Origin: Geodermatophilus poikilotrophus
Lineage (GTDB): Bacteria > Actinomycetota > Actinomycetes > Mycobacteriales > Geodermatophilaceae
Assembly: GCF_900111455.1 (NCBI RefSeq)
Contig: NZ_FOIE01000001.1
Location: forward strand, 124,001-188,000
Direction of reading: 5' to 3'
DNA length: 64,000 nucleotides
Each line of letters starts with the position of its first letter. Position 1 is the stretch's first letter. Below the pieces are notes generated by a model, which had not been told where the DNA came from, did not search any database, and saw nothing but the letters and a program-made list of their open reading frames with translations. This document shows positions 13,974 through 63,758 of the stretch, piece after piece. The translations under genes and the position numbers were made by a program.

Positions 13974-14028
13974 GTCGTCCGTGGGGAGTCGTCGAGGGGG
14001 CCGATCCCGGGGATGCGGCCGGATCTGT

Positions 14029-14077
14029 CTTCCGTCACGTGGAAGCGCGGTATGCCTGGGCGGTGACCTCCGTCACG
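14029..14077 (+). promoter_or_regulatory. Two palindromes upstream of the MFS-vanAB operon, one CRP/GlxR-like
   Basis: CTTCC-N7-GGAAG (14029-14045) is followed by GGTGACCTCCGTCACG (14062-14077), whose core GTGA-N6-TCAC fits the CRP/GlxR half-sites. The element TCCGTCACG occurs in both. The start codon of the MFS gene is at 14132. One may be the operator of the operon's IclR regulator and the other a catabolite-control site. Confidence 0.4.
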
Positions 14078-14131
14078 CTTCCCAGGGTCAGTCGCCGATC
14101 GTCGGCGACGCCCCTCACGAAGGAGCGAGGC

Positions 14132-40484: not shown

Positions 40485-40512
40485 GCACTGCGCGTGTGGC
40501 AGCGTTCCCGGC

Positions 40513-41835: not shown

Positions 41836-41870
41836 GCGGCCCCGGCGGCCGCCGGACGACGCGCGGGCCG

Positions 41871-42665: not shown

Positions 42666-42706
42666 CGGCCTCCTCCAGGTCGTCCCCGGCCGGTCGGCGC
42701 AGGCGC

Positions 42707-43654: not shown

Positions 43655-43665
43655 GGGGCACCTCT

Positions 43666-43677
43666 GCTCATCTGAGC
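43666..43677. promoter_or_regulatory. SorC operator 1 (regulator-proximal)
   Basis: GCTCATCTGAGC: arms GCTCA/TGAGC, 12 nt upstream of the regulator's start codon. A further half-site TGCTCA follows at 43685-43690. Confidence 0.6.
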
Positions 43678-43761
43678 GTCTGGCTGCTCACTATGGCACA
43701 CCCCTTGACGCCATCACCCGGCAGGGTGAGACTCAGGCCACACACATTTGAGACACCCGGC

Positions 43762-43773
43762 GCTCATATGAGC
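43762..43773. promoter_or_regulatory. SorC operator 2 (transporter-proximal)
   Basis: GCTCATATGAGC, a perfect palindrome 36 nt upstream of the binding-protein start; same arms as operator 1, with TGAG repeated nearby at 43749-43752. Confidence 0.65.
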
Positions 43774-43808
43774 GGTCGCATGGTGTCGGCCCCGAGGAGG
43801 ACCGCCTC

Positions 43809-45176: not shown

Positions 45177-45213
45177 CCGAGCCGGCAGGACGACACCAGG
45201 GAGAGGCAGCGGG

Positions 45214-46200
45214 ATGAGCACCACTCTGGAGACCGGCCGCGGGCGCGGTCAGCAACCGCCGACACCGCCTCCGGCACCGCCCACGCCCTCGCCGGGCGGA
45301 GCGCTCCGCCGATCGGCCGACTGGGCCCGCCGGGCACCGCTGCTGCCCGCGCTGGTGTTCACGATCATCGTCACCCAGCTGCCGTTCGTGGTCACGCTGA
45401 TCGTCTCGTTCATGGACTGGAACGCCTACTACCCCGACGAGCGCGGCTTCGCCGGGTTCGGCAACTACGCGAGCGTGCTGACCGACGTCAACATGCGCCA
45501 GGCCATCCTCACCACGGTCGTGCTGACCGCGGTCGTCGTCCTGGTCAGCCTGCTGCTCGGGATGGTCATCGCCCTGCTGCTGGACCGGCAGTTCCGCGGC
45601 CGGGGCGCGGTGCGCACCATGATGATCACGCCGTTCCTCATCGTCCCCGTCGCCGCGGCGCTGCTGTGGAAGCACGCGCTGTTCAACCCCGAGTACGGCC
45701 TGCTCAACGGGACGCTCACCGCGATCTGGCGGCTGTTCGGCTCGGACAACGCGCCGCAGCCGGACTGGATCACCATGGCGCCGCTGGTCTCGGTCGAGGT
45801 CGCCCTCATCTGGCAGTGGACGCCGTTCATGATGCTGATCCTGCTGGCCGGGCTGCAGAGCCGGCCGCTGGACGTCATCGAGGCCGCGCGCATCGACGGC
45901 GCCAGCGCCTGGCAGATCTTCCGCTACATGACCTTCCCGCACCTGCGCCGCTACCTGGAGCTGGGCGGGCTGCTCGGGTCGATCTACATCGTGCAGAACT
46001 TCGACGCGGTCTTCACGATCACCTCGGGCGGCCTGGGCACGGCGAACCTCCCGTACGTCATCTACCAGACCTTCTACCAGGCCCACGACTACGGCCGGGC
46101 GTCCGCTGCCGGCGTCGTCGTCGTCATCGGCACGATCGTCATCGCCACGCTGGCGCTGCGGACGGTGTCGACGCTCTTCCAGGAGGAGAACGCGCGATGA
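45214..46200 (+). CDS. Polyol ABC transporter permease 1 (MalF type)
   Basis: A 328-residue protein; GAGAGGCAGCGGG precedes the ATG at 45214. After a Pro-rich cytosolic N-terminus (10-30) it has six membrane helices; the EAA motif RPLDVIEAARIDGASAWQIF (about 225-244) contacts the ATPase. MalF/UgpA-type permease of a carbohydrate importer. Its stop overlaps the next permease start (ATGA). Confidence 0.9.
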   Translation: MSTTLETGRGRGQQPPTPPPAPPTPSPGGALRRSADWARRAPLLPALVFTIIVTQLPFVVTLIVSFMDWNAYYPDERGFAGFGNYASVLTDVNMRQAILTTVVLTAVVVLVSLLLGMVIALLLDRQFRGRGAVRTMMITPFLIVPVAAALLWKHALFNPEYGLLNGTLTAIWRLFGSDNAPQPDWITMAPLVSVEVALIWQWTPFMMLILLAGLQSRPLDVIEAARIDGASAWQIFRYMTFPHLRRYLELGGLLGSIYIVQNFDAVFTITSGGLGTANLPYVIYQTFYQAHDYGRASAAGVVVVIGTIVIATLALRTVSTLFQEENAR

Positions 46201-47090
46201 GCTCCGTCACCGATGTCGCACCGGTCGCCGCCACCCGCACGCCCGAGGGCGCACCCCGCCGGCCGCGCAAGCCGCGGTCCGGCGCCCTGCTGGGGGTGGC
46301 CGCCTGGCTGATCGGCTTCCTGTTCGTCGTGCCCGTGCTGTGGATGGTGCTGACGTCGTTCCACAGCGAGGAGGCCGCGGCGACCAACCCGCCGTCTCTC
46401 CTCGCGCCGCTGACCTTCGCCGGCTACCGGGAGTTCTTCGGCGTCGGCACCGGCACCAGCCCCTGGCCGTCGCTGCTCAACTCGCTGACCGCCAGCGTGG
46501 TCTCGACGGTCATCGTGCTGCTGCTGGCCATCCCGGCCGCCTACGCGCTGTCGATCAAGCCGGTGCGCAAGTGGACCGACGTGATGTTCTTCTTCCTGTC
46601 CACCCGCATGCTGCCGATCGTGGCCGGCCTCCTGCCCATCTACCTGTTCGCGCAGTGGAGCGGCCTGCTGGACAACATCTGGCTGCTCATCGTCCTGTAC
46701 ACGGCCATGAACCTGCCGATCGCGGTGTGGATGATGCGCTCGTTCCTCGCCGAGGTCCCCGTCGAGATCCTCGAGGCGGCCTCGATGGACGGCGCCGGGC
46801 TGCTGCTGACCCTCCGCCAGGTGGTGGCGCCCATCGTCCTGCCGGGCATCGCCGCCACCTCGCTGATCTGCTTCATCTTCAGTTGGAACGAGCTGCTGCT
46901 GGCCCGGACCCTGACCGGCACCGTGGCCGGGACCGCGCCGGTCTACCTGACCGGCTTCGTGACCAGCCAGGGGCTGTTCCTCGCCCAGGTCTGCGCGGCC
47001 TCGTTCGTGGTGTCGCTGCCCGTGCTCGTCGCCGGCTTCGCCGCCCAGGACAAGCTGGTGCAGGGGCTGTCGCTGGGAGCCGTCAAGTGA
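46197..47090 (+). CDS. Polyol ABC transporter permease 2 (MalG type)
   Basis: A 297-residue protein starting 4 nt before the previous stop. Six helices; the EAA motif is VPVEILEAASMDGAGLLLTL (about 188-207). Pairs with the upstream permease to form the membrane channel. Its stop overlaps the GTG of the zinc dehydrogenase (GTGA), so transporter and enzyme are made together. Confidence 0.9.
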   Translation: MSSVTDVAPVAATRTPEGAPRRPRKPRSGALLGVAAWLIGFLFVVPVLWMVLTSFHSEEAAATNPPSLLAPLTFAGYREFFGVGTGTSPWPSLLNSLTASVVSTVIVLLLAIPAAYALSIKPVRKWTDVMFFFLSTRMLPIVAGLLPIYLFAQWSGLLDNIWLLIVLYTAMNLPIAVWMMRSFLAEVPVEILEAASMDGAGLLLTLRQVVAPIVLPGIAATSLICFIFSWNELLLARTLTGTVAGTAPVYLTGFVTSQGLFLAQVCAASFVVSLPVLVAGFAAQDKLVQGLSLGAVK

Positions 47091-48157
47091 GCGCGGCGGC
47101 CGGAACGGTCCCGGGGACCGGACACCTCGGTCCGGCGGCCACGATGCGCGCCTCGGTCCTGCGCGGGCCCGGCGACGTGGTCGTGGAGGAGCGGGCCGTC
47201 CCCCGGCCGGGCCCTGGTGAGGTGGCGGTCCGCGTCGCCTCGGTCGGGGTCTGCGGATCGGACACGCACTACTACGACCACGGGCGCATCGGTCGGTTCG
47301 TCGTCGAGTCCCCGCTCGTGCTGGGGCACGAGGCAGCGGGGGAGGTGGCCGCCCTCGGGCCCGGCGTCTCCTCGCTCGCCGTCGGGCAGCGGGTGTCGGT
47401 CGAGCCGGGGGTCCCGGACCTGACCTGCCCGCAGTGCCTGGCCGGGCGCTACAACCTCTGCCCGGACATGCGCTTCTTCGCGACCCCGCCGATCGACGGC
47501 GCCTTCGCCGAGTACGTCGTCGTCCACGCGGCCTTCGCCCACCCCGTGCCCGAGACGATCAGCGACGACGCCGCCGCACTGCTGGAACCCCTGTCGGTCG
47601 GCATCTGGGCCTGCCGCAGGGGCCGGGTGGGCGCCGGCTCCCGGGTGCTCGTCACCGGGGCCGGACCCATCGGGCTGGTGAGCGTCCAGGTGGCGCGGGC
47701 GTTCGGCGCCACGGAGATCGTGGTGTCCGACGTCAACCCCGCGCGGCTGGCCCTGGCTCGTGACCTCGGCGCCACCGAGGTCGTCGACGCCCGGACGGCC
47801 CGCGTGACGGACCTGCCGCGACCGCCCGAGGTGCTGCTGGAGTGCTCCGGTCACCCGGCGGCCACCGCCGAGGCCATCCGCGCCCTCGACCGGGCCGGTC
47901 GGGCGGTGCTCGTCGGCATGGGCGGCGACGAGCTGCCCCTGCCGCTGTCGGTGGTGCAGGAACGGGAGCTCGAGGTCACCGGCACCTTCCGCTACGCCAA
48001 CACCTGGCCGACGGCGATCGCGCTGGTCGGCGCCGGGCGGATCGACCTCGACCGCCTGGTCACCGGCACCTACCGGCTGGACCAGGCCGAGGACGCCCTG
48101 ACGGCCGGCCGCCGCGACCCGCGGTCGGTGAAGGTCGTCGTCCACCCGCAGACCTGA
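47087..48157 (+). CDS. Zinc-dependent polyol (sorbitol/xylitol-type) dehydrogenase
   Basis: A 356-residue medium-chain dehydrogenase. Catalytic zinc site: VGVCGSDTHYYDHGRIG (Cys) and VLGHEAAGEV (His-Glu); structural-zinc-like TCPQCLAGRYNLC has three cysteines. NAD-binding VTGAGPIGLVSVQVARAFGA. HYYDHGRIG is typical of sorbitol and xylitol dehydrogenases. It oxidises the imported polyol to the ketose. Encoded inside the ABC transporter operon, coupled to the second permease. Confidence 0.88.
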   Translation: MSAAAGTVPGTGHLGPAATMRASVLRGPGDVVVEERAVPRPGPGEVAVRVASVGVCGSDTHYYDHGRIGRFVVESPLVLGHEAAGEVAALGPGVSSLAVGQRVSVEPGVPDLTCPQCLAGRYNLCPDMRFFATPPIDGAFAEYVVVHAAFAHPVPETISDDAAALLEPLSVGIWACRRGRVGAGSRVLVTGAGPIGLVSVQVARAFGATEIVVSDVNPARLALARDLGATEVVDARTARVTDLPRPPEVLLECSGHPAATAEAIRALDRAGRAVLVGMGGDELPLPLSVVQERELEVTGTFRYANTWPTAIALVGAGRIDLDRLVTGTYRLDQAEDALTAGRRDPRSVKVVVHPQT

Positions 48158-48194
48158 CGTTCCCCTGACCTCTGCTCCAGCAAGGAGAGATCCC

Positions 48195-49307
48195 ATGGCC
48201 TCCGTCACCTACGACCGGGCGAGCCGCATCTACCCCGGCTCCGACAAGCCCGCGGTCGACGCCCTCGACCTCCAGATCGCCGACGGCGAGTTCCTCGTCC
48301 TGGTCGGCCCCTCCGGCTGCGGCAAGTCCACCAGCCTCCGGATGCTCGCCGGTCTGGAGGACGTCGACGACGGGGCGATCCGCATCGGGGACCGGGACGT
48401 CACGCACCTGAAGTCCAAGGACCGGGACATCGCGATGGTGTTCCAGAGCTACGCGCTGTACCCGCACATGACCGTCGGGGACAACATGGGCTTCGCGCTC
48501 AAGATCGCCGGGGTGCCGAAGGAGGAGATCACGCAGCGGGTCCGGGAGGCGGCGAAGATCCTCGACCTGGAGACCTTCCTGGACCGCAAGCCCAAGGCCC
48601 TCTCCGGCGGCCAGCGCCAGCGCGTCGCGATGGGCCGGGCGATCGTGCGCTCGCCGCAGGTGTTCCTCATGGACGAGCCGCTGTCCAACCTCGACGCCAA
48701 GCTGCGCGTGCAGACCCGCACCCAGATCGCCGCGCTGCAGCGCCGGCTCGGGACCACGACGGTCTACGTCACCCACGACCAGGTCGAGGCGATGACCATG
48801 GGCGACCGCGTGGCGGTGCTGCGGGCCGGCCTGCTGGAGCAGTGCGACACGCCCCTGCGGCTCTACCAGGAGCCGGCCAACGTCTTCGTCGCCGGGTTCA
48901 TCGGTTCCCCCGGCATGAACATCGCCGAGTTCCGGCTGCACGACGGGCACGCGGTGCTCGGCAGCGCCCGCCTCCCGCTGAGCACCGCGGCGCTGGGCGC
49001 GCTCTCGGCGGAGGGGGCCGACCGCGTCGTCGTCGGCTTCCGGCCGGAGGCCCTCGACCTCGCCACGGAGGCCGAGCCCGGCGCCTTCGCCGTGGACGTC
49101 GGGGTGGTGGAGGAACTGGGCTCCGACGCGTTCCTGCACGGGACGCTGCCGGAGCTGCGCGGGGAGTCCGGCTCGCTCGCCGAGAACATCGTCGCGCGGG
49201 TCGACCCCGCCCGGCCGCCGGCGAAGGGGGAACGGGTGCACCTGCGCATCCAGCCGGGCAAGGAGCACCTCTTCTCCCCGTCGACCGGCCGCCGCATCCC
49301 CGCCTGA
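48195..49307 (+). CDS. Carbohydrate ABC transporter ATP-binding protein (UgpC/MsmK type)
   Basis: A 370-residue protein; AAGGAGAG lies upstream of the ATG. Walker A GPSGCGKSTS (about 37-46), Q-loop FQSYALYPHM, signature LSGGQRQR, Walker B VFLMDEPLSNLDAK, H-loop YVTHDQVEAM, and a C-terminal TOBE regulatory domain (from about 240). It energises the polyol permeases encoded upstream in the same operon. Confidence 0.93.
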   Translation: MASVTYDRASRIYPGSDKPAVDALDLQIADGEFLVLVGPSGCGKSTSLRMLAGLEDVDDGAIRIGDRDVTHLKSKDRDIAMVFQSYALYPHMTVGDNMGFALKIAGVPKEEITQRVREAAKILDLETFLDRKPKALSGGQRQRVAMGRAIVRSPQVFLMDEPLSNLDAKLRVQTRTQIAALQRRLGTTTVYVTHDQVEAMTMGDRVAVLRAGLLEQCDTPLRLYQEPANVFVAGFIGSPGMNIAEFRLHDGHAVLGSARLPLSTAALGALSAEGADRVVVGFRPEALDLATEAEPGAFAVDVGVVEELGSDAFLHGTLPELRGESGSLAENIVARVDPARPPAKGERVHLRIQPGKEHLFSPSTGRRIPA

Positions 49308-49328
49308 CCGCAGCGCAGGAGGACCCCC

Positions 49329-50846
49329 GTGCCACAGCTCAGCAGCGCGACCCTGGCCTCCCTCGGCGGCTCGCTGTCCGTGCCGTCCTACGACCGGTCC
49401 TCGGTGCGGACCGGGATCGTGCACCTGGGGGTGGGCGCTTTCCACCGGTCGCACCAGGCCATGTACCTCGACCGGCTCATGGAGCAGGGGCAGGCGCGGG
49501 ACTGGGGCATCTGCGGTGTCGGCGTGCTGCCGTCCGACCGCCGGATGGCGGAGGTGATGGCCGCCCAGGACTGCCTGTACACCCTGGTGGTCAAGCACTC
49601 CGACGGGCGCTTCGACGCCCGCGTCGTGGGTTCGGTCGTCGAGTACCTGCTCGCACCGGACGACCCCGACGCGGTCGTCGAGAAGATGGCGGCCGAGGGC
49701 ACCCGGATCGTGTCGCTGACGGTCACCGAGGGCGGCTACAACATCGGGGCGGTCACCGGTGAGTTCGACCCGACCCACCCCGACGTCGTCTCCGACCTCC
49801 GGCCCGGCGCCGCGCTGCGGACGTCGTTCGGGCTGGTCACCGAGGCGCTGGTGCGCCGGCGCGACCGCGGCCTGCCCCCGTTCACCGTGGTGTCCTGCGA
49901 CAACATCCAGCACAACGGCGACGTCGCCCGGCGCAGCTTCGCCGCCTTCGCCACCCTGCGGGACCCGGACCTGGGCGCGTGGGTCGAGCGGGAGGTGCCG
50001 TTCCCGAACTCGATGGTCGACCGGATCACCCCCGCCACCACGGACGACGACCGGGCCGAGGTCGCCCGGCGGTTCGGCGTCGACGACGCGTGGCCGGTGG
50101 TCTGCGAGGACTTCACCCAGTGGGTCCTCGAGGACCGGTTCGGCCTCGGGCGCCCGCCGCTGGAGGACTCCGGCGTCCAGATCGTCGACGACGTCGACCC
50201 CTACGAGCGGATGAAGCTGCGGCTGCTCAACGCCAGCCACCAGGCGCTCGCCTACCTCGGCCACCTCGCCGGCTACCGGCTCGTCCACGACGCGGCGCAG
50301 GACCCGCTGTTCCGGCGGTTCCTGCTCGGCTACATGGAGGGGGAGGCCACGCCCACCCTCCGGCCGGTCCCCGGGATCGACCTCGAGGACTACCGGAGGA
50401 CCCTGATCGCCCGCTTCTCCAACCCGCACATCCGCGACACGCTGGCGCGGCTGGCCTTCGACGGGTCCGAGCGGCTGCCCAAGTGGCTGCTCCCGGTCGT
50501 GCGGGACCAGCTCGCCCGCGGCGGGGAGGTGCGCCGCTCGGCCGCGGTCGTCGCGGGCTGGGCCCGGTACTCCGAGGGCGTGGACGAGGAGGGCCGGCCG
50601 ATCGAGATCGCCGACCGCCGGCGGGACCCCCTCATGGCCGCGGCGCGCCGCGAGCGGGAGGAGCCGCTCGCGTTCCTCGCCGACCGGGCGCTGTTCGGGG
50701 ACCTCGCGGACGACGAGCGGTTCACCGGGCCCTACCTGGCGGCGCTGGCCTCGCTGCACGAGCGGGGGGCCAGGGCGACCCTCGAGGCCCTGGTCGTGGA
50801 CGCCCTGCCGACGCCGTCCACGTCGCTCGGCGGTCCGGTTCGCTGA
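49329..50846 (+). CDS. Mannitol/polyol 2-dehydrogenase (long-chain, MtlD/UxuB superfamily)
   Basis: A 505-residue protein from a GTG preceded by AGGAGGACC. IVHLGVGAFHRSHQAMYLDRL is the N-terminal signature of the polyol-specific long-chain dehydrogenases; VVSCDNIQHNGDVARRSF and ERMKLRLLNASHQALAYLG (catalytic Lys/His region) follow. About 500 residues fits mannitol 2-dehydrogenase rather than mannitol-1-phosphate dehydrogenase (about 380). It would oxidise D-mannitol or D-arabinitol to fructose or xylulose. Last gene of the polyol operon. Confidence 0.9.
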   Translation: MPQLSSATLASLGGSLSVPSYDRSSVRTGIVHLGVGAFHRSHQAMYLDRLMEQGQARDWGICGVGVLPSDRRMAEVMAAQDCLYTLVVKHSDGRFDARVVGSVVEYLLAPDDPDAVVEKMAAEGTRIVSLTVTEGGYNIGAVTGEFDPTHPDVVSDLRPGAALRTSFGLVTEALVRRRDRGLPPFTVVSCDNIQHNGDVARRSFAAFATLRDPDLGAWVEREVPFPNSMVDRITPATTDDDRAEVARRFGVDDAWPVVCEDFTQWVLEDRFGLGRPPLEDSGVQIVDDVDPYERMKLRLLNASHQALAYLGHLAGYRLVHDAAQDPLFRRFLLGYMEGEATPTLRPVPGIDLEDYRRTLIARFSNPHIRDTLARLAFDGSERLPKWLLPVVRDQLARGGEVRRSAAVVAGWARYSEGVDEEGRPIEIADRRRDPLMAAARREREEPLAFLADRALFGDLADDERFTGPYLAALASLHERGARATLEALVVDALPTPSTSLGGPVR

Positions 50847-50910
50847 GGCCGGATCGCCCGCGCCGGGCTCCGCCGGGACGTCCCCGGCCGCGGAGCGCCG
50901 TACCCGAGGA

Positions 50911-51843
50911 GTGGCTGGGCCCTCCGCTGGGAACCAGCGGGGCGTGTCCCGGTCAGGTGACGTCACGAGGCGCGGCGGGCCCCACGCGTCCCTGCACGCG
51001 GCCTTCCAGCACGCGCCCATGGGCATGGCCGTGACGACCGTCGACGGCGTCCTGCTGGAGGTCAACCCGGCTCTGGGCCGGCTGCTGCGGCGCACGCCCG
51101 ACGCACTGACGGGCACGTCCCTGTTCGACCTGACGCACCCCGACGACCGCGACGGCGCCCACCGGTCCTGCGCCGCACTGCGGGTCCACCGCAGCTCCCT
51201 CTGGCGTCACGAGTGCCGGTTCCTGCGCACCGGCGGCGAGCACGTCGCGGTGCAGGTCGCGACGTCGTGGGTCGACGCCGACGGCGGGCAGCCAGCGCAC
51301 CTGGTGATGGTCATCGAGGACATCGGGGACCGGAAGGCCGTCGAGGCGGGGCTGCGGCACCAGGCGGTGCACGACCCGCTGACGGGTCTGCCGAACCGGG
51401 TGCTCTTCCGGGACCGCCTGCAGCACGCGCTGGACCGGGGCCACCGCGAGGGCACCGAGACCTGCGTGCTGATGATCGACCTCGACGGGTTCAAGGCGAT
51501 CAACGACCGGTACGGGCACCCGGTCGGGGACCGGGTGCTGGCCGCGTTCGCCGGCCGCCTCACCGCGGCCCTGCGCGCCAGCGACACCGCGGCGCGCCTC
51601 GGCGGCGACGAGTTCGCCGTCATCTGCGAGCGGAGCGCCCCGTACGACGCCGAGGCCCTCGTCGCGCGCCTCCACACGCTGCTCGTCGAGCCGTTCGACC
51701 TGGACGGCAGTCCGGTCGTGGTCCGCTGCTCCATCGGGCTCGGGCACGTCGACGGCGGCACGGACACGTCGGCCGGGGTGGCGACGCTGATCGGCGACGC
51801 CGACCGGCGGATGTACGCCGACAAGCGCCGCAGCCGCGACTGA
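50911..51843 (+). CDS. PAS-GGDEF diguanylate cyclase
   Basis: A 310-residue protein. PAS domain about 28-145 (LHAAFQHAPMGMAVTTVDGV, GTSLFDLTHPDDRDG); GGDEF domain about 150-305 with DPLTGLPNRVLFRDRL and the active-site GGDEF at 231-235, which is intact, so c-di-GMP synthesis is expected. No EAL domain. The GTG at 50911 has GAGGA directly adjacent, too close; the in-frame GTG at 50944 is an alternative start. No membrane segment, so a cytosolic sensor. Confidence 0.88.
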   Translation: MAGPSAGNQRGVSRSGDVTRRGGPHASLHAAFQHAPMGMAVTTVDGVLLEVNPALGRLLRRTPDALTGTSLFDLTHPDDRDGAHRSCAALRVHRSSLWRHECRFLRTGGEHVAVQVATSWVDADGGQPAHLVMVIEDIGDRKAVEAGLRHQAVHDPLTGLPNRVLFRDRLQHALDRGHREGTETCVLMIDLDGFKAINDRYGHPVGDRVLAAFAGRLTAALRASDTAARLGGDEFAVICERSAPYDAEALVARLHTLLVEPFDLDGSPVVVRCSIGLGHVDGGTDTSAGVATLIGDADRRMYADKRRSRD

Positions 51844-55888: not shown

Positions 55889-57064
55889 TCAGCCCGGAGT
55901 GGTGGTCGCGAGCTCGGCGAAGGTGTCGGCGACCCAGTCGGCGACGAACGAGCTGACGTACGGCAGGTGGTCCAGGCCGATGTGCTCGGTCGCGCCCTCC
56001 TCGGGCGTGAAGACACGCAGCTCGCGTTTGGGGGAGTTGACCGCCTGGTCGTACGAGCGGTGCGCCATCTCCAGCGGGATCTGCCGGTCGTTGGCGCCGT
56101 GCGCGATCAGGAACGGCACGGTGATCTGCTCGACGACGCCCTCGAGGTTCACCGCATCGGCGACGTCCAGGAACTCGTCGAGGTCGGTGTGGCCCCACAC
56201 CCAGAGCACGTGCTTCCAGTAGTGCGGCACCGGGCGCTCGCCCTCGTGCTGCCGGCGTCGGCGCTGCACCGCGCCCCAGTCGTGGTTCGCGCCCCACGCC
56301 ACGCACAGCGCGAACCGCTTCTCGAACGCGGCCGCACGAGGGGAGTAGTAGCCGCCGAGCGACCAGCCCACGATGCCGATCCGGGAGGCGTCGACGTCGG
56401 GGCGGGTCTCCAGCCAGTCGACGGCCGCCCCCGCCCACACCTCGGTGTCGATGCGGGCGGGGAGCCCCTGCAGCCGCAGCGCCTCGCCGGTGCCGGGCTG
56501 GTCGAGCATCAGGCAGGAGATGCCGCGGGCGGCCAGCTCCTCCCAGTGGTTGGAGGCGTACATGTGCTCCTTGGTGGAGTCCAGCCCGTTGACCAGCACG
56601 ACCACCGGAGCGGGGCCGTGGTCGGTGGCCGGCGCAGCGCTGAAGTAGGCCGGCAGCGTCGTCCCCTCGTAGGGGATGGCCACCCGGGAGACCCGCGGGC
56701 TGTGCGTCTCGAACGCCTTCTGCGCGATCTCCAGCATCCGCCGGTAGGTCGGCACGCGGTTCGGGTCGGATCGGGCGAGCATCCGCTCGGCCTGGGCCAG
56801 GTAGTTGCTGGCGCGGAACCACAGCTGCCCGGCGGTGCGGACGTGCCCGGCCTTCTCCGCGGCCTCGGCCTGCCCGACGAGCTGGTCGGTCAGCGCGGTC
56901 CAGGCCCGCAGGAAGTCAGGGGTCCCGGCGTCCTCACCGGCGTCGGCGGCGTCCTTGATCGGCCGGCAGGCCCGGTCGACCTCGTCGATCAGGCCGCCGG
57001 AGTTCAGCGTCGCGACGACGCCGAGGTTCCAGGTGTAGGGGCCGGTGGGGAAGTACTCGAACAC
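55889..57064 (-). CDS. Alpha/beta-hydrolase of the C-C bond hydrolase/FrsA-like group
   Basis: A 391-residue protein from a GTG (GAGGA 6 nt upstream). A helical N-terminal cap (about 1-120) precedes the hydrolase domain: VVVLVNGLDSTKEHMYASNH (oxyanion region), nucleophile elbow GWSLGGYY (about 231-238), acid near AHGANDRQIP and the final His in EHIGLDH. The N-terminal cap plus GLDSTKE style recalls 2,6-dihydroxypseudooxynicotine hydrolase, which cleaves a C-C bond in nicotine breakdown. Last gene of the minus-strand ring-cleavage cluster; it likely hydrolyses a ring-fission or side-chain diketone. Confidence 0.8.
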   Translation of the reverse strand: MFEYFPTGPYTWNLGVVATLNSGGLIDEVDRACRPIKDAADAGEDAGTPDFLRAWTALTDQLVGQAEAAEKAGHVRTAGQLWFRASNYLAQAERMLARSDPNRVPTYRRMLEIAQKAFETHSPRVSRVAIPYEGTTLPAYFSAAPATDHGPAPVVVLVNGLDSTKEHMYASNHWEELAARGISCLMLDQPGTGEALRLQGLPARIDTEVWAGAAVDWLETRPDVDASRIGIVGWSLGGYYSPRAAAFEKRFALCVAWGANHDWGAVQRRRRQHEGERPVPHYWKHVLWVWGHTDLDEFLDVADAVNLEGVVEQITVPFLIAHGANDRQIPLEMAHRSYDQAVNSPKRELRVFTPEEGATEHIGLDHLPYVSSFVADWVADTFAELATTTPG

Positions 57065-57074
57065 TGCGGTCCTC

Positions 57075-57131
57075 TCAGGTGGTGGCTGCGGCGACGGCGT
57101 CGCTGGTGGACTCCACGCCGTGGGCGGTCAT
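57075..57131 (-). CDS. Tiny 18-codon ORF, ATGA-coupled
   Basis: Its ATG overlaps the stop of the preceding 37-codon ORF (ATGA) and it ends 11 nt before the hydrolase GTG. It may only carry ribosomes through the operon, or be part of a decayed gene. No family. Confidence 0.2.
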   Translation of the reverse strand: MTAHGVESTSDAVAAATT

Positions 57132-57241
57132 GCCCCGTCGACGGCGCCCTCGGCCGTGAGCAGGAGTGCTTCGGCGGCACCGGGCCCGCGGCCGGCGCCG
57201 GCGAGCGCGACCCTCCAGGCGAGGCTGCTCGTGGTGCTCAC
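57128..57241 (-). CDS. Tiny 37-codon ORF coupled to the FAH-family gene
   Basis: The GTG at 57241 overlaps the FAH-family stop (GTGA), like other couplings in this cluster. The product is Ala/Leu/Gly-rich without a known motif (SLAWRVALAGAGRGPG). Together with the following 18-codon ORF it fills the 173-nt space before the hydrolase. Either a small protein or the relic of a lost enzyme gene. Confidence 0.25.
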   Translation of the reverse strand: MSTTSSLAWRVALAGAGRGPGAAEALLLTAEGAVDGA

Positions 57242-58221
57242 GCCGGGCGCTTGCGGGCCCGGGGCCGGGGGCGGGCGGCCCGCACCGGGGGCAGCTGGAC
57301 ACCCTCGACCACGCGGTTGCGGAGCGTGCCGATGCCCTCGACGGTCATCTCCACGACGTCGCCCGGCTGCAGCGGGGGAGGGGCCTGCTGGCCGCGCCGT
57401 CCCCACAGCTCGGCCAGGCAGCCGCCGTTGCCGCAGGTGCCCGAGCCGAGCACGTCACCGGCGCGGACCTCCGTGCCGCGGGAGGCGTAGGAGATCAGCT
57501 CCTCGAACGGCCAGCCCATGTTCGACAGCAGGTCCTGGCCGACCTCGGTGCCGTTCACCGACACCCGCATGTCCAGGGCCAGGAAGCCCTCGTCGTCCCG
57601 GTACGGCTCGAGCTCGTCGGCGGTGACCAGCCACGGGCCCAGCGTCGTCGCCGAGTCCTTGCCCTTGGCCGGCCCGAGGCTGACCCTCATCTCCCGTGCC
57701 TGCAGGTCACGGGCGGACCAGTCGTTGAACACGGTGTAGCCGAAGACGTGGTCGCGCGCCTGCTCGGGCGTCAACGAGGCACCGTCCCGGCCGATGACGA
57801 CGGCCACCTCGAGCTCGAAGTCGAAGCGCTGGGAGCCGGGCGGCACGGCGACGTCGTCGTTCGCGCCGACCAGCGCGTACGGGTTGGTGAAGTAGAACGT
57901 CGGCGCCTGGTACCACTCCGGCACGACCCCGGCCTGACCGTCGATCGCCTTGCGCACACCCTCGACGTGCTCCTCGAACGCGACGAAGTCGCGCACCGTC
58001 GGCGCCTGCAGCGGGGGCAGCAACCGCACCGACTCTAGCGGCACGGCAGGCCCGTCGAGCGCGGCGGCGCCGGCCTCGAGCGCGGCCGGCAACCCCGCGC
58101 GGACGAGGTCGAGCACCGTCGTCCGCGCGGGGAGTTCGTGGAGGCCGGCTGTGCCGTCGGGGCGGTCGGAGACGACGCCGGCGGAGACCCGGCCGTCGGC
58201 CTCCCAGGTGGCGAACCGCAT
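57238..58221 (-). CDS. Fumarylacetoacetate-hydrolase-family enzyme
   Basis: A 327-residue protein; its ATG overlaps the stop of the dioxygenase gene (ATGA). FAH fold: DFVAFEEHVEGVRKA, FDFELEVAVVIGRDG (metal-binding Glu residues), VFGYTVFNDWSARDLQ and GDVLGSGTCGNGGCLAELWG. Family members hydrolyse or decarboxylate acylpyruvates and ring-fission products (e.g. fumarylpyruvate, HHDD). It should act after the extradiol dioxygenase. The C-terminal end is Arg/Pro-rich. Confidence 0.88.
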   Translation of the reverse strand: MRFATWEADGRVSAGVVSDRPDGTAGLHELPARTTVLDLVRAGLPAALEAGAAALDGPAVPLESVRLLPPLQAPTVRDFVAFEEHVEGVRKAIDGQAGVVPEWYQAPTFYFTNPYALVGANDDVAVPPGSQRFDFELEVAVVIGRDGASLTPEQARDHVFGYTVFNDWSARDLQAREMRVSLGPAKGKDSATTLGPWLVTADELEPYRDDEGFLALDMRVSVNGTEVGQDLLSNMGWPFEELISYASRGTEVRAGDVLGSGTCGNGGCLAELWGRRGQQAPPPLQPGDVVEMTVEGIGTLRNRVVEGVQLPPVRAARPRPRARKRPA

Positions 58222-59159
58222 CAGACCGGGGGAGCGACGAACAGACCCTTGTCGGGGTCGTTGAACGAGCGCTGGGCGACGAACTCGTTCATGGCGTTCG
58301 CCGTGCCCCACTGGTCGCTGACCTCGGGGTTGCTGAAGTCGTAGACGTGCGGGTGCCAGGTGTCCTCGTCCAGGACCTCCAGCTCGGTCGTGTACTCCAC
58401 GGTGTTCCCGTGCGGGTCGAGGAAGTAGCTGAAGGTGTTGTTGCCGGCCATGTGCCGGCCCGGGCCCCAGAGCTTCTCCACGCCGGCGCGGATGAGGCGG
58501 CCGGTGCCGCGCATGTACTCGTCGATGCCGCGCATCTCGAACGAGGCGTGGTGCAGCGAGGGGTGCGGGCCGCGGGCGATCGCCATGCTGTGGTGCCAAG
58601 CGTTGGTGCGCAGGAACCACATCATGTTGCCCATGCGCGGGTGCATGAGCGTGTCCGACAGCGAGAAGCTCAGGTACTCGTCGTAGAACGCGACGGTGCC
58701 CTCGGGGTCGGCGGAGTTGATGACCACGTGGGAGAGCCGCACGGGGATGGACTCGCCCTCCTCGATCGTGCGGTGCTGCCGCACCTCGACGTCGGAGCTG
58801 ACCTCGATGGTGCGGCCCTCGTTGTCGAAGAACCGGAAGCCGTAGCCACCGCCCGGGGTCTGCAGGTCGGTCGGCTCGTGCACGAGCTGGACGCCGTCGG
58901 CGGCCAGCTGCGCGGCGAGGGTGTCGACGTCGGCGGCGTTCGCGGCGCCGAAGGAGATGAGGTCGATCCGCTTGTCGGTGGCCTCGCGCAGCCGGACGAC
59001 GTACTGCTCCGGCGACCCCTCGGCCGCCAGGAAGGCCAGGCCGGTGTCGGTGTGCTCGGGCGTCAGGCCCCAGATGCCGGAGTAGAAGTCGAGCTGCTTG
59101 GCGAAGTCCGGCACGGCGAGGTCGACGTGCCGCAGATGGGTGATCAGGCGCTGGGTCAT
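58221..59159 (-). CDS. Extradiol ring-cleavage dioxygenase (VOC, two-domain type I)
   Basis: A 312-residue protein; GGAG lies 7 nt before the ATG. Two VOC domains: the N-terminal one starts THLRHVDLAVPDFAKQLDFY, the C-terminal one contains LSHVVINSADPEGTVAFYDE (first metal His), HHASFEMRG (second His) and YFLDPHGNTVEYTTE (metal Glu). It opens a catecholic or hydroxylated ring next to the diol using Fe(II) and O2. It follows the FAD hydroxylase that would make the diol by 13 nt and is coupled to the FAH-family gene. Confidence 0.9.
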   Translation of the reverse strand: MTQRLITHLRHVDLAVPDFAKQLDFYSGIWGLTPEHTDTGLAFLAAEGSPEQYVVRLREATDKRIDLISFGAANAADVDTLAAQLAADGVQLVHEPTDLQTPGGGYGFRFFDNEGRTIEVSSDVEVRQHRTIEEGESIPVRLSHVVINSADPEGTVAFYDEYLSFSLSDTLMHPRMGNMMWFLRTNAWHHSMAIARGPHPSLHHASFEMRGIDEYMRGTGRLIRAGVEKLWGPGRHMAGNNTFSYFLDPHGNTVEYTTELEVLDEDTWHPHVYDFSNPEVSDQWGTANAMNEFVAQRSFNDPDKGLFVAPPV

Positions 59160-59172
59160 GGGTGTCTCCGGG

Positions 59173-60303
59173 TCACGCGGGCTGGCTGGTGAGGATCGCG
59201 ATGCTGCGCATCAGGCTCGGGATGTCGCCCTGCACGTGGTCGAGCTGCCACTGCGCGAGCTGGTTGGAGGCGTCGACCACGGTCCTCGCGCGCTCGAGCC
59301 GGCGGGCGTGGAAGGCGTCCCACAGGTCCTGGTCGAGCGCGTGGCGCTCGACGAGCAGCTCGGCGAGGACGACGGCGTCCTCCAGGGCCATGGCGCCGCC
59401 CTGGGCGATGGTGGGCGGGCAGGTGTGCGCGGCGTCGCCGATCAGGACGACCCGGCCCCGGTTCCACGGCTCGTCGAGGACGTGGGTCTCGAACCAGGTG
59501 TAGTTCACCCGGCTCGGGTCGGTCAGCGTCTCGCGGATCTCGTCCCAGGGGCCGTGGTAGGCCTGCGACAGCTGCTTCATCGTGGCCAGCTGCTCGTCCG
59601 GCGTCATGGCGCTGCGGTCCTGCGCGTCCTCGACGATGTAGGCGTAGAGTGAGTCCTCGCCGGTGGGGCAGTACCCGGCAATGTAGGACGGGCCGCCGTA
59701 GTAGAGGTCGGTGCGCGTGACGCTCGCCGGCCGCGGGCCGAACGCGCGCCAGATGCCCATGCCGACCGACCTCGTCTCGAGGTTGATCCCGAGGGCACGG
59801 CGGGTCCACGAGCGGAGGCCGTCGGCCCCCACCACCACGTCGTACCGGCCGGTCGAGTGGTCCGAGAAGGTGACGTCGACGCCGTCGTCGTCCTGGGCCA
59901 GCTCGGTGAACGTGGTGCCGGAGCGGACCTCGACGCCCACCTCCGTCGCGCGGTCGGCCAGGATCCGAGCCAGCTCGGGTCGGGGCATCCCCATCACGGC
60001 CGGCAGGTCGGGGCCGCCGGTCCTGGCGTCGGAGACCTCCGCGACGACGGTGCCGTTCGGGTCGGGCGCGCGGATCCCGGTGGTGTCGAAGGCGTAACCC
60101 GCGGCCTCGACCTGTTCCCAGACGCCGAGCGAGCGCAGCTCGCGCAGGGCGTTGCCCTGGAGGGTGATGCCGGAACCGAGGGCGGCGACGTCGGGCTTGA
60201 TCTCGATCAGGTCGACGGCGACGCCGGCCTTCGCGAGGTGGATCGCCGTCGCGGCACCGGCGAGACCACTGCCGACGACGAGGACGTTGTTCACCGCAGG
60301 CAT
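59173..60303 (-). CDS. FAD-dependent aromatic hydroxylase (group A flavoprotein monooxygenase)
   Basis: A 376-residue protein with GGAG 7 nt before the ATG. FAD fold VLVVGSGLAGAATAIHLAKAG, DG motif VVGADGLRSWTRRALG, and GD motif VVLIGDAAHTCPPTIAQGG. This is the p-hydroxybenzoate-hydroxylase/salicylate-hydroxylase class, which adds one oxygen atom to an aromatic ring using NAD(P)H. In this cluster it should create the substrate for the extradiol dioxygenase. No thioredoxin-like C-terminal domain, so it is the short type. Confidence 0.9.
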   Translation of the reverse strand: MPAVNNVLVVGSGLAGAATAIHLAKAGVAVDLIEIKPDVAALGSGITLQGNALRELRSLGVWEQVEAAGYAFDTTGIRAPDPNGTVVAEVSDARTGGPDLPAVMGMPRPELARILADRATEVGVEVRSGTTFTELAQDDDGVDVTFSDHSTGRYDVVVGADGLRSWTRRALGINLETRSVGMGIWRAFGPRPASVTRTDLYYGGPSYIAGYCPTGEDSLYAYIVEDAQDRSAMTPDEQLATMKQLSQAYHGPWDEIRETLTDPSRVNYTWFETHVLDEPWNRGRVVLIGDAAHTCPPTIAQGGAMALEDAVVLAELLVERHALDQDLWDAFHARRLERARTVVDASNQLAQWQLDHVQGDIPSLMRSIAILTSQPA

Positions 60304-60313
60304 CTCGGGACTC

Positions 60314-61318
60314 CTACTTGACGGCGATCGGGTTGACCGGGGCGCCGACGGCGCCGGTCACGGGCAGCGGGGCGGCGGTGAGGAAGAACTCCCAGACGCC
60401 GTCGGCGGCGCAGTCGGCCGCGAGGCCGTCGAGGTCCCACATCTCGCCGATGAACAGCCCGGTGTTGGGGATGCACACCTGGTGCAGCGGCTGGAAGGCG
60501 ACGTCGAACTCGTTGGGCCGCACCTCGAAGCCCCAGGTGTCGGTGGCGATGCCGGCGATCTCGGTGCCGTGCAGCCAGTCGGCGGTGGTGAACGACAGGC
60601 CGGGGGAGGCCCCGCCTGCGTAGTCGCCCCAGCCGCGACCCTCGGCGATGTCGCGGCGCGCGCGGGTCAGCCGTCCGGTGCGCACCAGCAGCAGGTCGCC
60701 GCGGCCGACCCGGGCGCTCCCGCCCTGCGCGGCGATGGTCGCCTCGAGGTGCTCGGCGGTGATGGCGAAGCCGTCGGGCAGCTCGCCGTCGGTGCCCACC
60801 GTCCGGCCGACGTCCAGCAGCACACCACGCCCGGCGAAGAGCGCGGCGGTGGTCTCGATCCCGGTCACCCCGTCGCCGTCGCTGGTGACCACGTCACCGG
60901 CACGGCGACCGTTCCAGGCCATGCCGTGGTCGAAGATGTGACCGAGGCCGTCCCACTGCGTCGAGGCCTGCAGCGGCATCGCGATGACGTCGTCGGCGCC
61001 GCCGAGGCCGTGCGGGAAGCCCTGGACACCGCGCTCGGCGTCGGTGCCCGTGTCGAGCATCGTGTGCACCGGGTTGGTGCGACGCCGCCAGCCCTTCTGC
61101 GGGCCGTCCATGTCGAACGACTGGGCGAGGGAGAAGCTCGCGCCACGGCGCACGAGGCGGGCGCCCTCGAGCCGCTTGGCCTCGTCGAGGAAGTTCAGCG
61201 TGCCCAGGACGTCGTCCGCGCCCCAGCGACCCCAGTTGGAGCAGCGCTCGGCGGCGGCGGCGATGGCGCCCTCCGGGTCGGTGCGGTCGAGCTCCGCGGG
61301 TGGGGGGGCGTCGGTCAC
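60314..61318 (-). CDS. Cyclase-family metal-dependent hydrolase
   Basis: A 334-residue protein. The GTG at 61318 (AGGAGG just upstream, tight spacing) is preferred over an ATG at 61378 that would run into the LysR control region. The family's HxGTHxDxxxH motif appears as QASTQWDGLGH: both first histidines are Gln, as in one subgroup annotated only as cyclase family. Relatives hydrolyse N-formylkynurenine, isatin or other cyclic amides and lactones. First gene of the minus-strand cluster; its product would feed the FAD hydroxylase. Confidence 0.78.
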   Translation of the reverse strand: MTDAPPPAELDRTDPEGAIAAAAERCSNWGRWGADDVLGTLNFLDEAKRLEGARLVRRGASFSLAQSFDMDGPQKGWRRRTNPVHTMLDTGTDAERGVQGFPHGLGGADDVIAMPLQASTQWDGLGHIFDHGMAWNGRRAGDVVTSDGDGVTGIETTAALFAGRGVLLDVGRTVGTDGELPDGFAITAEHLEATIAAQGGSARVGRGDLLLVRTGRLTRARRDIAEGRGWGDYAGGASPGLSFTTADWLHGTEIAGIATDTWGFEVRPNEFDVAFQPLHQVCIPNTGLFIGEMWDLDGLAADCAADGVWEFFLTAAPLPVTGAVGAPVNPIAVK

Positions 61319-61344
61319 GCCTCCTACGGTCGGGTGAGCCAGGT

Positions 61345-61354
61345 CATCAGGGAA
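61345..61354. promoter_or_regulatory. Candidate LysR site in the divergent cyclase/LysR promoter
   Basis: CATCAGGGAA, followed after 6 nt by ATGGTTGATG, a partly matching inverted arm. The same ten bases recur at 62357 in front of the MFS gene. Confidence 0.5.
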
Positions 61355-61402
61355 GACGAGATGGTTGATGCCGGTCATCGACAGCGTTTATGGTCCGCCG
61401 CT

Positions 61403-62323
61403 GTGAACCTGGCCAACCTGGACCTCAACCTGCTCGTGTCCCTCGACGCGCTGCTCGACCAGCGCAGCGTGACGCGGGCGGGCCGGCAGCTGGGGTTGAG
61501 CCAGCCGGCGCTGTCGGCGTCCCTGGCCCGGCTGCGGCGGCACTTCGGCGACGAGCTGCTGTCCCGGGTCGGCAACTCCTACCGGCTCACCCCGCTGGCC
61601 GCGCAGCTCAAGCCGAGGGTCCGGCTGGCCCTCGACGGCGTGGAGCGGGTGTTCACCGCGCAGCCGGAGTTCGACCCGGTCGAGTCCACCCGCGAGTTCT
61701 CGGTGCTGGTGAGCGACTACGGGTGCGCCGTCCTGGGGGACACGCTGGCCCAGCTGCTGTCGGAGGAGGCGCCCGCCGCCCGCCTGCGCCTGGCGCACAA
61801 CACGCCGGAGGCGGTGGACCAGGCGGCGCAGACGCTGCTCAGCACCGACCTGATCGTCCTCCCGCACGGTTTCATCAGCGACCTCCCGCACGGGGATCTG
61901 CACCGGGACCGGTGGGTGCTCGTCGTGTCGGCCGACAACGCCGACGTGGGGGACGCCCTCACCGTGGGGCAGCTGGAGACCATGCCCTGGGTGGCCACCT
62001 ACCACGGGCCGACGGCGTCCACCCCCGCCGCCCGGCAGATGCGGATGCTCGGGATCGAGCCCCGCGTCCAGGTCGTCACGGAGAGCTTCCTGACCGTCCC
62101 GGGGCTGGTCGCCGGCAGTGGCCGCATCGCCCTGCTGCAGGAGCGGCTGGTGCAGCTGCTGCCCCTCGACGCGGGTGTCCGGGCCCTGCCACCTCCGTTC
62201 GAGCTCGGGCCGCTGGTCGAGGCCATGTGGTGGCACCCGGTCTACGACCGCGACCCCGAGCACCAGTTCTTCCGGGACCTCGTGCGGCGCGCCGCCCACC
62301 AGGCGACCGACCCGCTGCCGTGA
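61403..62323 (+). CDS. LysR-family regulator of the ring-cleavage cluster
   Basis: A 306-residue protein from the GTG at 61403. VNLANLDLNLLVSLDALLDQ, SVTRAGRQLGLSQPALSASL and LRRHFGDELLSRVGNSYRLT form the winged HTH typical of the NodD/PcpR-like branch; the C-terminal co-inducer domain spans about 90-300. It is divergent from the cyclase-FAD hydroxylase-dioxygenase operon (84-nt spacer) and upstream of an MFS gene; a shared CATCAGGGAA motif at both promoters suggests that it controls both. Confidence 0.9.
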   Translation: MNLANLDLNLLVSLDALLDQRSVTRAGRQLGLSQPALSASLARLRRHFGDELLSRVGNSYRLTPLAAQLKPRVRLALDGVERVFTAQPEFDPVESTREFSVLVSDYGCAVLGDTLAQLLSEEAPAARLRLAHNTPEAVDQAAQTLLSTDLIVLPHGFISDLPHGDLHRDRWVLVVSADNADVGDALTVGQLETMPWVATYHGPTASTPAARQMRMLGIEPRVQVVTESFLTVPGLVAGSGRIALLQERLVQLLPLDAGVRALPPPFELGPLVEAMWWHPVYDRDPEHQFFRDLVRRAAHQATDPLP

Positions 62324-62356
62324 CATCCCGCGGGCATCGACGGGACTGATGATCAG

Positions 62357-62382
62357 CATCAGGGAATCCTCATTCCCTGATG
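62357..62382. promoter_or_regulatory. Strong palindrome upstream of the MFS gene
   Basis: CATCAGGGAAT (62357-62367) and ATTCCCTGATG (62372-62382) are perfect 11-bp arms around CCTC. The first ten bases repeat the motif at 61345. The MFS start is at 62459. Confidence 0.65.
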
Positions 62383-62458
62383 GGGCGGGATCTGAGCACA
62401 CTGCCTCGCCAGTGACGCCGGTCACCGGAACCGGCGCTCGTCCCCACCGGAGCAGCCC

Positions 62459-63712
62459 GTGTCCGAGCACGTCCTCGACCCCGCCGGGGTCGCCCGCGAG
62501 CCCCTCGCCGCGGAGGTGGCCCTCGACCCCGCGACGGGCCGTCCCGCCGGCCGGGCGCAGGCCCTCGTCCTCCTGCTCTCCAGTTGCCTCGCGGTGCTCG
62601 GGGCGGTGCTGCTCGCACCGGTGCTCCCGCGCATCCAGGACGCCTTCGCGGGCACTCCCGGTGTCGAGACCCTGACCCCGGTGGTGCTGACCGCACCCGC
62701 CCTGGTGATCGGGCTGACCGCGATGGTCGCCGGGCGCATCGTCGACCGGGTCGGCCGCAAGCGGCTGCTGGTCGGGGCGCTCGTCGTCTACGCGCTCGTG
62801 GGCACCGCGCCGCTGTGGCTGCCGTCCCTGCAGCTGATCGTGGCCAGCCGCGTGCTCCTCGGCCTCACCGAGGCGGCGATCATGACCTGCTGCACCACGC
62901 TGCTCGCCGACTACTTCCACGGCTCGCAGCGGGAGCGCTACTTCGGCCTCCAGGTCGTCTTCACGACCGTCGCCGCCACGCTCTTCTTCGGCCTCGGTGG
63001 CGCACTGGGGGCCCAGGACTGGCGGACGCCGTTCTGGCTCTACGCCGTCAGTCTGCCGCTGGCCCTTCTCGCCGCGAAGTACGTGTGGCAGCCCGCGCCG
63101 CAGGCGCGGGCGCGGGCCACGGAGCTGCCTCCGCTGCCGTGGCGGCAGCTGGCCGCACCGGTCGGCGTGACGTTGCTCGGCGGGCTGGTCTTCTACGTCC
63201 TCATCGTCCAGCTGTCGTTCGTGCTCGACGGCATCGGCGTCGGGTCGACGGCCACGATCGGCGCCGCCAGCGCCATCGCCTCGCTCGGCACCGCGGTCGG
63301 GGCGTTCCTCTTCGGTCGGCTGGCCAGGCTCGGTCCCGCGGTCACTGTGCCGCTGGCCTTCGGGCTGTCCGGGGTGGGGATTGTCGGGCTGGGTCTGGCC
63401 TCCGCCGTCCCGCTCGTCATCGCCTCCGCTGTCGTCACCGGCTTCGGTAACGGCCTGCTGCTGCCCTCCCTGCTGACCTGGGCGCTCGGCTCGCTGGGCT
63501 TCGAGCAGCGCGGCCGCGGGACCGGTGTGTGGACGTCGGCCCTCTTCATCGGTCAGTTCATCTGCCCGCTCGTCGTCCTGGCGCTCAGCGGTGCCATCGG
63601 CGGCCTGGGCTCCGCGCTGGTCGTCGTCGGGACCGTGGCCATCGCCGCAGCCGCCGGTGTGCGTTCCCTCCGGCCGGCGCAGCCGGGTGGGCAGGCTCTG
63701 GCCGCGCACTGA
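62459..63712 (+). CDS. MFS transporter of the ring-cleavage cluster
   Basis: A 417-residue protein from a GTG with GGAG 6 nt upstream. Twelve membrane helices; motif A variant AGRIVDRVGRKRLLVGALVV follows helix 2. Its promoter carries the CATCAGGGAAT palindrome shared with the LysR/catabolic operon, so import of the cluster's substrate (or export of an intermediate) is the likely role. A terminator hairpin follows the stop. Confidence 0.87.
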   Translation: MSEHVLDPAGVAREPLAAEVALDPATGRPAGRAQALVLLLSSCLAVLGAVLLAPVLPRIQDAFAGTPGVETLTPVVLTAPALVIGLTAMVAGRIVDRVGRKRLLVGALVVYALVGTAPLWLPSLQLIVASRVLLGLTEAAIMTCCTTLLADYFHGSQRERYFGLQVVFTTVAATLFFGLGGALGAQDWRTPFWLYAVSLPLALLAAKYVWQPAPQARARATELPPLPWRQLAAPVGVTLLGGLVFYVLIVQLSFVLDGIGVGSTATIGAASAIASLGTAVGAFLFGRLARLGPAVTVPLAFGLSGVGIVGLGLASAVPLVIASAVVTGFGNGLLLPSLLTWALGSLGFEQRGRGTGVWTSALFIGQFICPLVVLALSGAIGGLGSALVVVGTVAIAAAAGVRSLRPAQPGGQALAAH

Positions 63713-63719
63713 CCGTGCG

Positions 63720-63758
63720 GACGGCGGCCCCGCCAGGACTCCTCGCGGGGCCGCCGTC
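63720..63758. terminator. MFS terminator, bidirectional position
   Basis: GACGGCGGCCCCGC (63720-63733) pairs perfectly with GCGGGGCCGCCGTC (63745-63758) around an 11-nt loop, between convergent genes. Confidence 0.7.

Follow-up and report, generated by a model that had tools for sequence, protein, structure and literature searches.

The window analysed here is a 64,000-nucleotide stretch of the Geodermatophilus poikilotrophus genome (positions 124001-188000 of the contig that we term C7, in a high-GC genome of 4.83 Mb), which at 55889-63712 carries a seven-gene cluster of a LysR-type regulator, a permease and five enzymes. The cluster is a real, conserved unit carried by many actinobacteria. 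With a probability of roughly 0.55, we read it as a catabolic operon under LysR control, working in the manner of the flavonoid-degrading fde (naringenin) and ifc (isoflavone) pathways. The observed basis of this reading is the gene content, the kept gene order, the conserved active-site residues and the predicted fold of the hydrolase; the substrate, the order of the reactions, the position of ring cleavage, the roles of the FAH-family and cyclase-family proteins and induction by the substrate are what we infer from it. The original prediction had named an ordered five-enzyme set with a permease and LysR, and all seven genes were confirmed in their families and places, their boundaries coinciding exactly with the coordinates below. 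On the minus strand, the transcription order is cyclase, flavin adenine dinucleotide (FAD) hydroxylase, two-domain extradiol dioxygenase, FAH and capped alpha/beta hydrolase, and the plus strand carries the divergent LysR gene and the MFS permease.

55889..57064, minus strand: capped alpha/beta hydrolase, FdeB-like by identity to fde-type hydrolases, predicted fold and invariant residues
57065..57237: gap between the hydrolase and FAH genes, where 15 of 31 hydrolase-bearing relative loci have an SDR gene
57238..58224, minus strand: FAH-family enzyme (PF01557, E 2e-60), its start overlapping the stop of the dioxygenase gene
58221..59159, minus strand: two-domain VOC extradiol dioxygenase (PF00903; conserved catalytic residues), the proposed ring cleaver
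59173..60303, minus strand: group A FAD monooxygenase (PF01494, PRK06847 subfamily), proposed to perform ortho-hydroxylation to a catechol
60314..61318, minus strand: cyclase-family protein with an altered metal motif (PF04199); likely start GTG 61318, the open reading frame reaching ATG 61378
61366..61379: operator-like palindrome TGATG-N5-CATC in the intergenic region from which LysR and cyclase diverge
61403..62323, plus strand: LysR-type regulator (PF00126, PF03466; Pfam search run from 61409), start revised to GTG 61403
62459..63712, plus strand: MFS permease (PF07690), adjoining LysR
63720..63758: terminator-like inverted repeat directly 3' of the permease gene (19-nt arms, 95% complementary)

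The enzyme most strongly related to the fde pathway is the hydrolase. For this comparison, 80 fde-type loci were kept of 512 from one scan of named genomes, all obtained via the dioxygenase; the hydrolase occurs in 79 of them and the FAD enzyme in 76. With the hydrolases of those 79 loci, the window enzyme shares 47-53% identity at a median cover of 98%, and its Ser235, Glu248, Asp326 and His361 are invariant in a 16-row alignment. In a larger alignment of 30 rows, window included, Ser and His are kept in all, Glu in 27 and Asp in 28. The best sequence match in the PDB is 2,6-dihydroxypseudooxynicotine (DHPON) hydrolase of Arthrobacter nicotinovorans (2jbw, E 4e-26), an enzyme that acts on an acyl group on a hydroxylated ring. 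An AlphaFold2 model of the hydrolase (mean pLDDT 81.7) predicts the cap and the alpha/beta fold of DHPON/Ayg1p-type hydrolases, whose Ser-Asp-His site is seen in the alignments; the model superposes on 2jbw with Z 36.6 (root-mean-square deviation, rmsd, 3.3; 347 aligned), on AntI with Z 34.5 (rmsd 3.6, 360 aligned) and on Ayg1p with Z 31.6 (rmsd 3.5, 352 aligned). The Ser, Glu and Asp of DHPON hydrolase align with those of the window enzyme, and its GLESTKE corresponds to GLDSTKE, whereas its His falls outside the aligned stretch and no nicotine-pathway context was seen around the window cluster. Ayg1p, Wdyg1p and AntI share the predicted fold across nearly the full length (Z 31-34) and cut acyl groups from polyketides; unlike the window hydrolase, they are biosynthetic rather than catabolic, and they are only 15-20% identical to it. 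Where Afyg1p has its GLDG binding motif, the window hydrolase reads GLDS, invariant over the 16 rows. Afyg1p takes the acetoacetyl side chain off YWA1, giving tetrahydroxynaphthalene and 3-oxobutanoate, according to the available part of PMC11165489.

The FAD enzyme carries the GxGxxG, DG and GD motifs and scores 440.8 bits against NF005313 (cut-off 372). It is 34-42% identical to its counterparts in 76 of the 80 fde-type loci, a distance close to the 36.3% between IfcA and FdeE given in the available text of PMC11069340, and we counted this in favour of an fde-like working. In 58 of these loci, a LysR protein matches that of the window at 30-50% identity (median 35%). The dioxygenase aligns with catechol 2,3-dioxygenase (1mpy) and with 3b59 and has the residue signature of type I two-domain extradiol (VOC) enzymes. 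Six positions are intact in every one of the 37 aligned rows, that of the window among them: two His and a Glu, which we take to be the iron ligands, and two further His and a Tyr, presumably catalytic.

The search for dioxygenase relatives covered 396 genomes from across the phylum, eight of which matched at an E-value of 1e-40 or lower, and 98 genomes of close kin, 38 of which matched; both counts include the own genome. Our sample of 51 loci comprises 48 around the matches listed, leaving aside two fragmentary matches in one genome (G457) and the window's own, together with three from a plasmid collection (L012, L024 and L025); 49 were obtained via the dioxygenase and two (L024 and L025) via the FAD enzyme. 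The loci are not independent, six genomes contributing two each, and in L085 and L086 the hydrolase is cut by contig ends. The cut-offs for counting a gene were 60 bits and 44% identity, lowered to 38% for the SDR, decarboxylase and second FAH; homologues below them were dropped beforehand. The same gene order, for which the original prediction had proposed a database search, is kept in 27 of the 51 loci as LysR (divergent)-cyclase-FAD-VOC-FAH-(SDR)-hydrolase, the SDR being identified by a Pfam match read in L053. Outside this core, no neighbour recurs in more than seven of the 32 hydrolase-bearing loci (window included), and none hints at a substrate; the crude gene caller used for this comparison overlooked several of the FAH, SDR and cyclase genes. 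Since the order is kept while the flanking genes differ among loci, the cassette is a self-contained block. In one relative (L079), the cassette seems to be decaying: the match to the hydrolase is fragmented and that to the FAD gene covers only 15% of it.

On the proposed route, the FAD enzyme would hydroxylate a phenolic A ring beside an existing hydroxyl (C8 in flavonoid numbering), and the VOC dioxygenase would cut the C8-C8a bond, converting the fused ring into a lactone that bears a 2,4-dioxo-acid side chain. Fission of C15H12O6 would thus lead to C15H12O8 with a lactone carbonyl at C8a, a carboxylate at C8 and ketones at C7 and C5. The hydrolase would take the side chain off the lactone by hydrolysis of the C4a-C5 bond, yielding oxaloacetate and a 3-oxo-valerolactone, as Ayg1p trims acetoacetyl from a naphthol. 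The FAH and cyclase proteins and, in about half of the relatives, the SDR would process the products further. By our own arithmetic, the formulas balance (C15H12O8 + H2O = C11H10O4 lactone + C4H4O5 oxaloacetate), and the C11H10O4 lactone is a published intermediate, as described in the accessible part of PMC10755750. The ifc conversion of X2 to X3 amounts to a loss of C4H4O4 and presumably cannot be the oxaloacetate-releasing reaction. Daidzein has no 5-hydroxyl, and so its fission product would have no C5 ketone. The missing ketone would explain that daidzein degradation stayed intact upon disruption of the ifc hydrolase, as given in the available text of PMC11069340. A 4-hydroxyphenyl B-ring product could in principle, although this is a weak suggestion, be taken by genes elsewhere on the same contig (785000-804900), where a protocatechuate 3,4-dioxygenase beta gene above its cut-off lies close to a PobA-like 4-hydroxybenzoate hydroxylase gene (486 bits, below the cut-off of 538.7).

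The fde set was read in Herbaspirillum huttiense (L130), H. frisingense (L127) and H. aquaticum (L129), which have the same genes in a single order; H. seropedicae, whose strain SmR1 is the source of the fde operon, is not among the 80 loci, and the letters A-J on the other Herbaspirillum loci are our own assignment. FdeG is reportedly a putative cyclase, a designation attributed to Marin and colleagues in 2016. In the fde pathway, FdeE hydroxylates naringenin at C8 and FdeC opens the A ring. The available texts describe FdeE as an FAD monooxygenase and FdeD as a Rieske protein (PMC8552027), and FdeC as a glyoxalase-type dioxygenase (PMC11069340). When the plasmid collection was searched with the dioxygenase, hydrolase and FAD enzyme, clusters turned up in Burkholderia anthina (L018) and Diaphorobacter (L093), both consisting of LysR, hydrolase, dioxygenase, Rieske protein, FAD enzyme, MFS, cyclase, cupin, FAH and epimerase genes; they fit the fde operon as far as published descriptions go. 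Azospirillum B510 (L021) has a shorter set with no MFS, cupin or epimerase annotated. A Deinococcus aetherius plasmid (L097) carries an fde-like set outside Pseudomonadota and actinobacteria, with an fde-type hydrolase (64% to that of B. anthina), FAD enzyme, cyclase, FAH, a further FAD oxidoreductase and a P450. On a Paraburkholderia hospita plasmid (L094; L179:13065-16568), an ifc-like set of FAD enzyme, dioxygenase (66% to that of B. anthina) and Rieske protein is separated by about 5 kb from a complete set of the fde type.

The window shares with the fde operon the LysR regulator, FAD monooxygenase, VOC dioxygenase, FdeB-type hydrolase, FAH, PF04199 protein and MFS permease, whereas its dioxygenase, FAH and cyclase are of other lineages and its gene order is different. 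According to the accessible part of PMC11069340, the ifc cluster of Variovorax sp. V35 likewise has an FAD 8-hydroxylase followed by a VOC A-ring dioxygenase, and an alpha/beta hydrolase that shares 25% identity with DHPON hydrolase; unlike the window, near whose cluster there is no cupin, it employs the cupins IfcD1 and IfcD2 in a later step. The same text gives 65.8% identity between IfcB and FdeC, and the ifc cluster was likened to ours by this published description only. The FAD enzyme of the ifc-like P. hospita set (L179) falls in a clade other than that of the window enzyme.

Several results weigh against an fde-like working. Across the 80 fde-type loci, the dioxygenase is only 26-37% identical over a median 44% of its length, the FAH is 28-34% identical in 61, and the cyclase found no match at E 1e-4 (E 0.11 in direct comparison with the B. 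anthina cyclase). In phylogenetic trees, the clade of the FAD enzyme (support 98/95) is separate from the fde clade (99/99), and that of the dioxygenase stands apart from fde with full support. No homologue of the Rieske protein FdeD, the cupin FdeH, the epimerase FdeJ or FdeA was found at E 1e-4 between window position 45001 and 17.9 kb past the right end, the rest of the genome not being searched. In Corynebacterium (L010) and Rhodococcus (L011), dioxygenase relatives of 68% identity lie next to different hydroxylases, and the substrate can therefore not be read from the dioxygenase. The top match of the hydrolase fold is 3fnb, an acylaminoacyl peptidase by name (Z 38.0, rmsd 3.1, 360 aligned), and FrsA fits well too (Z 33.0, rmsd 3.1, 353 aligned); because of these matches, the fold by itself is no proof of C-C hydrolysis. 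Moreover, the available text of PMC10755750 states that, besides FdeE and FdeC, none of the fde enzymes had been reported as experimentally verified. Judged by sequence, the cluster is an assembly parallel to fde, with the hydrolase as the one strongly related enzyme in common, rather than a strict fde member; its resemblance to the A-ring-cleaving fde and ifc clusters is greater than that to nicotine or kynurenine pathways.

The hydrolase seems to be exchangeable. At the cut-offs used, 31 of the 51 loci have the hydrolase without a decarboxylase, 10 have a decarboxylase without the hydrolase (L047, at 10020-14140, L012, L025, L046, L048, L049, L071, L078, L082 and L024), 10 have neither and none has both. 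All 10 decarboxylase loci carry a second FAH, as do L081 and L083 among those with neither. The decarboxylase, read in L047, is an amidohydrolase (PF04909) most like ACMSD (4ofc, E 3.1e-51). In this alternative module, FAH cleavage would release pyruvate and leave a pyranone carboxylate, whose decarboxylation would give the same lactone, with the atoms in balance; the two modules would be equivalent because both would yield this lactone. In a second sample obtained via the hydrolase, 10 of 296 genomes matched, our own and G050 among them, and the loci of the other eight were compared. L207 has the fde-type hydrolase together with an amidohydrolase match of 32%, L204 has the hydrolase with a second FAH of 52%, L202 has a second-FAH match of 34%, L201 has the hydrolase and SDR only, and the genes of L203 are scattered. 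This pattern is looser, and the swap is therefore a strong tendency rather than a rule. We tentatively propose, with less than even confidence, that actinobacteria independently assembled a flavonoid A-ring pathway in which the last C-C cut would be made by exchangeable modules, either a hydrolase of the polyketide-trimming type, which would release oxaloacetate in a single step, or a second FAH together with an ACMSD-type decarboxylase, which would release pyruvate and CO2, and that FdeB would be the missing oxaloacetate-releasing enzyme of fde.

The same enzymology could serve another substrate, such as an acyl-resorcinol, acylphloroglucinol, chromone or microbial or lichen aromatic polyketide, whose fission product would likewise be an ortho-hydroxy ketone trimmed by the hydrolase. 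We regard this as rather unlikely, with some points in its favour: the actinobacterial dioxygenase and FAD enzyme clades stand apart from fde, polyketide-trimming enzymes belong to the fold family of the hydrolase, and the lichen-derived Polymorphobacter (L015) has a dioxygenase, FAD enzyme, alpha/beta hydrolase, FAH and MFS. However, the L015 hydrolase is only 27% identical, no gene near our cluster indicates such a substrate and the flanks are not conserved. Slightly more doubtful, and compatible with an fde-like working, is that the FAH rather than the alpha/beta hydrolase cuts the dioxo-acid chain to pyruvate in both cluster types, the hydrolase acting on a later lactone. The FAH gene (F) is found with either module and acylpyruvases are among the solved FAH-family structures, but none of the 31 hydrolase-bearing loci showed, at the cut-offs applied, the decarboxylase that this would need.

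It is very improbable that the cluster performs ordinary meta-cleavage on a simple phenol or hydroxylated aromatic acid, with the hydrolase as a dienoate C-C hydrolase or esterase. The dioxygenase matches the HpaD and catechol 2,3-dioxygenase models, in both cases below their cut-offs, whereas by its sequence the hydrolase belongs to the DHPON/FdeB type and no meta-pathway hydratase, aldolase or semialdehyde dehydrogenase is among the seven genes, so that the suspicion of something other than plain catechol meta-cleavage was borne out. An N-heterocycle route of the nicotine, hydroxypyridine, quinolone, kynurenine or isatin type is the least probable of all. The original prediction had likened the first and last enzymes to isatin/kynurenine and nicotine-type pathways. 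The last enzyme is indeed related to the nicotine-pathway C-C hydrolase, its best match in the PDB; the FAD enzyme, for its part, has 6-hydroxynicotinate 3-monooxygenase as its best PDB match (E 1.8e-23), and the alternative module contains the ACMSD-like decarboxylase. The nicotine reading is nevertheless lowered, as the hydrolase is 22-25% identical to the nicotine enzyme against 47-53% to the fde-type ones. The isatin/kynurenine link is weak: HxGTHxD is presumably the metal motif of the kynurenine formamidase/isatin hydrolase family (PF04199), and the window cyclase reads QASTQWD where the fde-type cyclase of B. anthina reads HSGTHLD. Its common ground with those enzymes is the Pfam superfamily only, and its sole PDB match up to E 5 is the uncharacterised protein 5ibz. 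We rejected the kynurenine/isatin reading on this altered motif and on the location of the kynureninase elsewhere, on contig C12; the presence of a kynureninase in the genome as such has no bearing either way on the cluster. Of the two substrate classes considered at the outset, a plant phenolic is thus likely and an N-heterocycle has lost ground, and instead of an undescribed route the hydrolase identities suggest a variant of a described kind. Among the NCBIfam matches listed, only PRK06847, a hydroxylase subfamily without assigned function, passed its curated cut-off, and no close characterised orthologue was found.

The region between the LysR and cyclase genes holds a putative operator-like palindrome. 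GATG-N5-CATCA occurs in 21 of 28 LysR-cyclase intergenic regions, window included, compared with 0.014% of mononucleotide shuffles; the exact motif is missing in seven, five of which, by eye, read TATG instead of GATG. Scanning with looser spacing gave no match in three fde-type regions (L130, L127 and L018) or in two decarboxylase-type regions (L047 and L012), and the shorter form GATG-N5-CATC also occurs at seven other places in the window. The ATG at 61378 chosen by the open reading frame finder falls inside the conserved palindrome, and GTG 61318 is thus the more likely cyclase start.

Elsewhere on the contig (66000-85900), a second FAD-monooxygenase-like gene is followed by a relative of the hydrolase of 33% identity, in a different neighbourhood. 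Near the cluster and no part of it, the window has a P-type ATPase gene (PF00122, PF00702; 51899-54463, minus strand). At 40024-51843, the window has a sugar block of phosphofructokinase, sugar-binding regulator, solute-binding protein, ABC ATPase and mannitol dehydrogenase genes, then a PAS-GGDEF protein gene.

In the literature that we found, oxidative A-ring-cleaving breakdown of flavonoids is genetically known from two clusters, fde and ifc, both from Pseudomonadota; no actinobacterial flavonoid cluster was among the matches listed, which is no proof that none is in print. One ifc step is without an assigned gene in the available text of PMC11069340, and the fde enzymes acting after ring cleavage are unverified in that of PMC10755750. 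The cluster offers a candidate enzyme for release of the A-ring remnant, the unassigned C-C-cleaving step of flavonoid catabolism, and the natural swap of modules could reveal its chemistry. In this soil actinobacterium, the cluster probably serves to open the ring of a flavonoid-like compound from plants, following a variant of a route that other bacteria are known to use.

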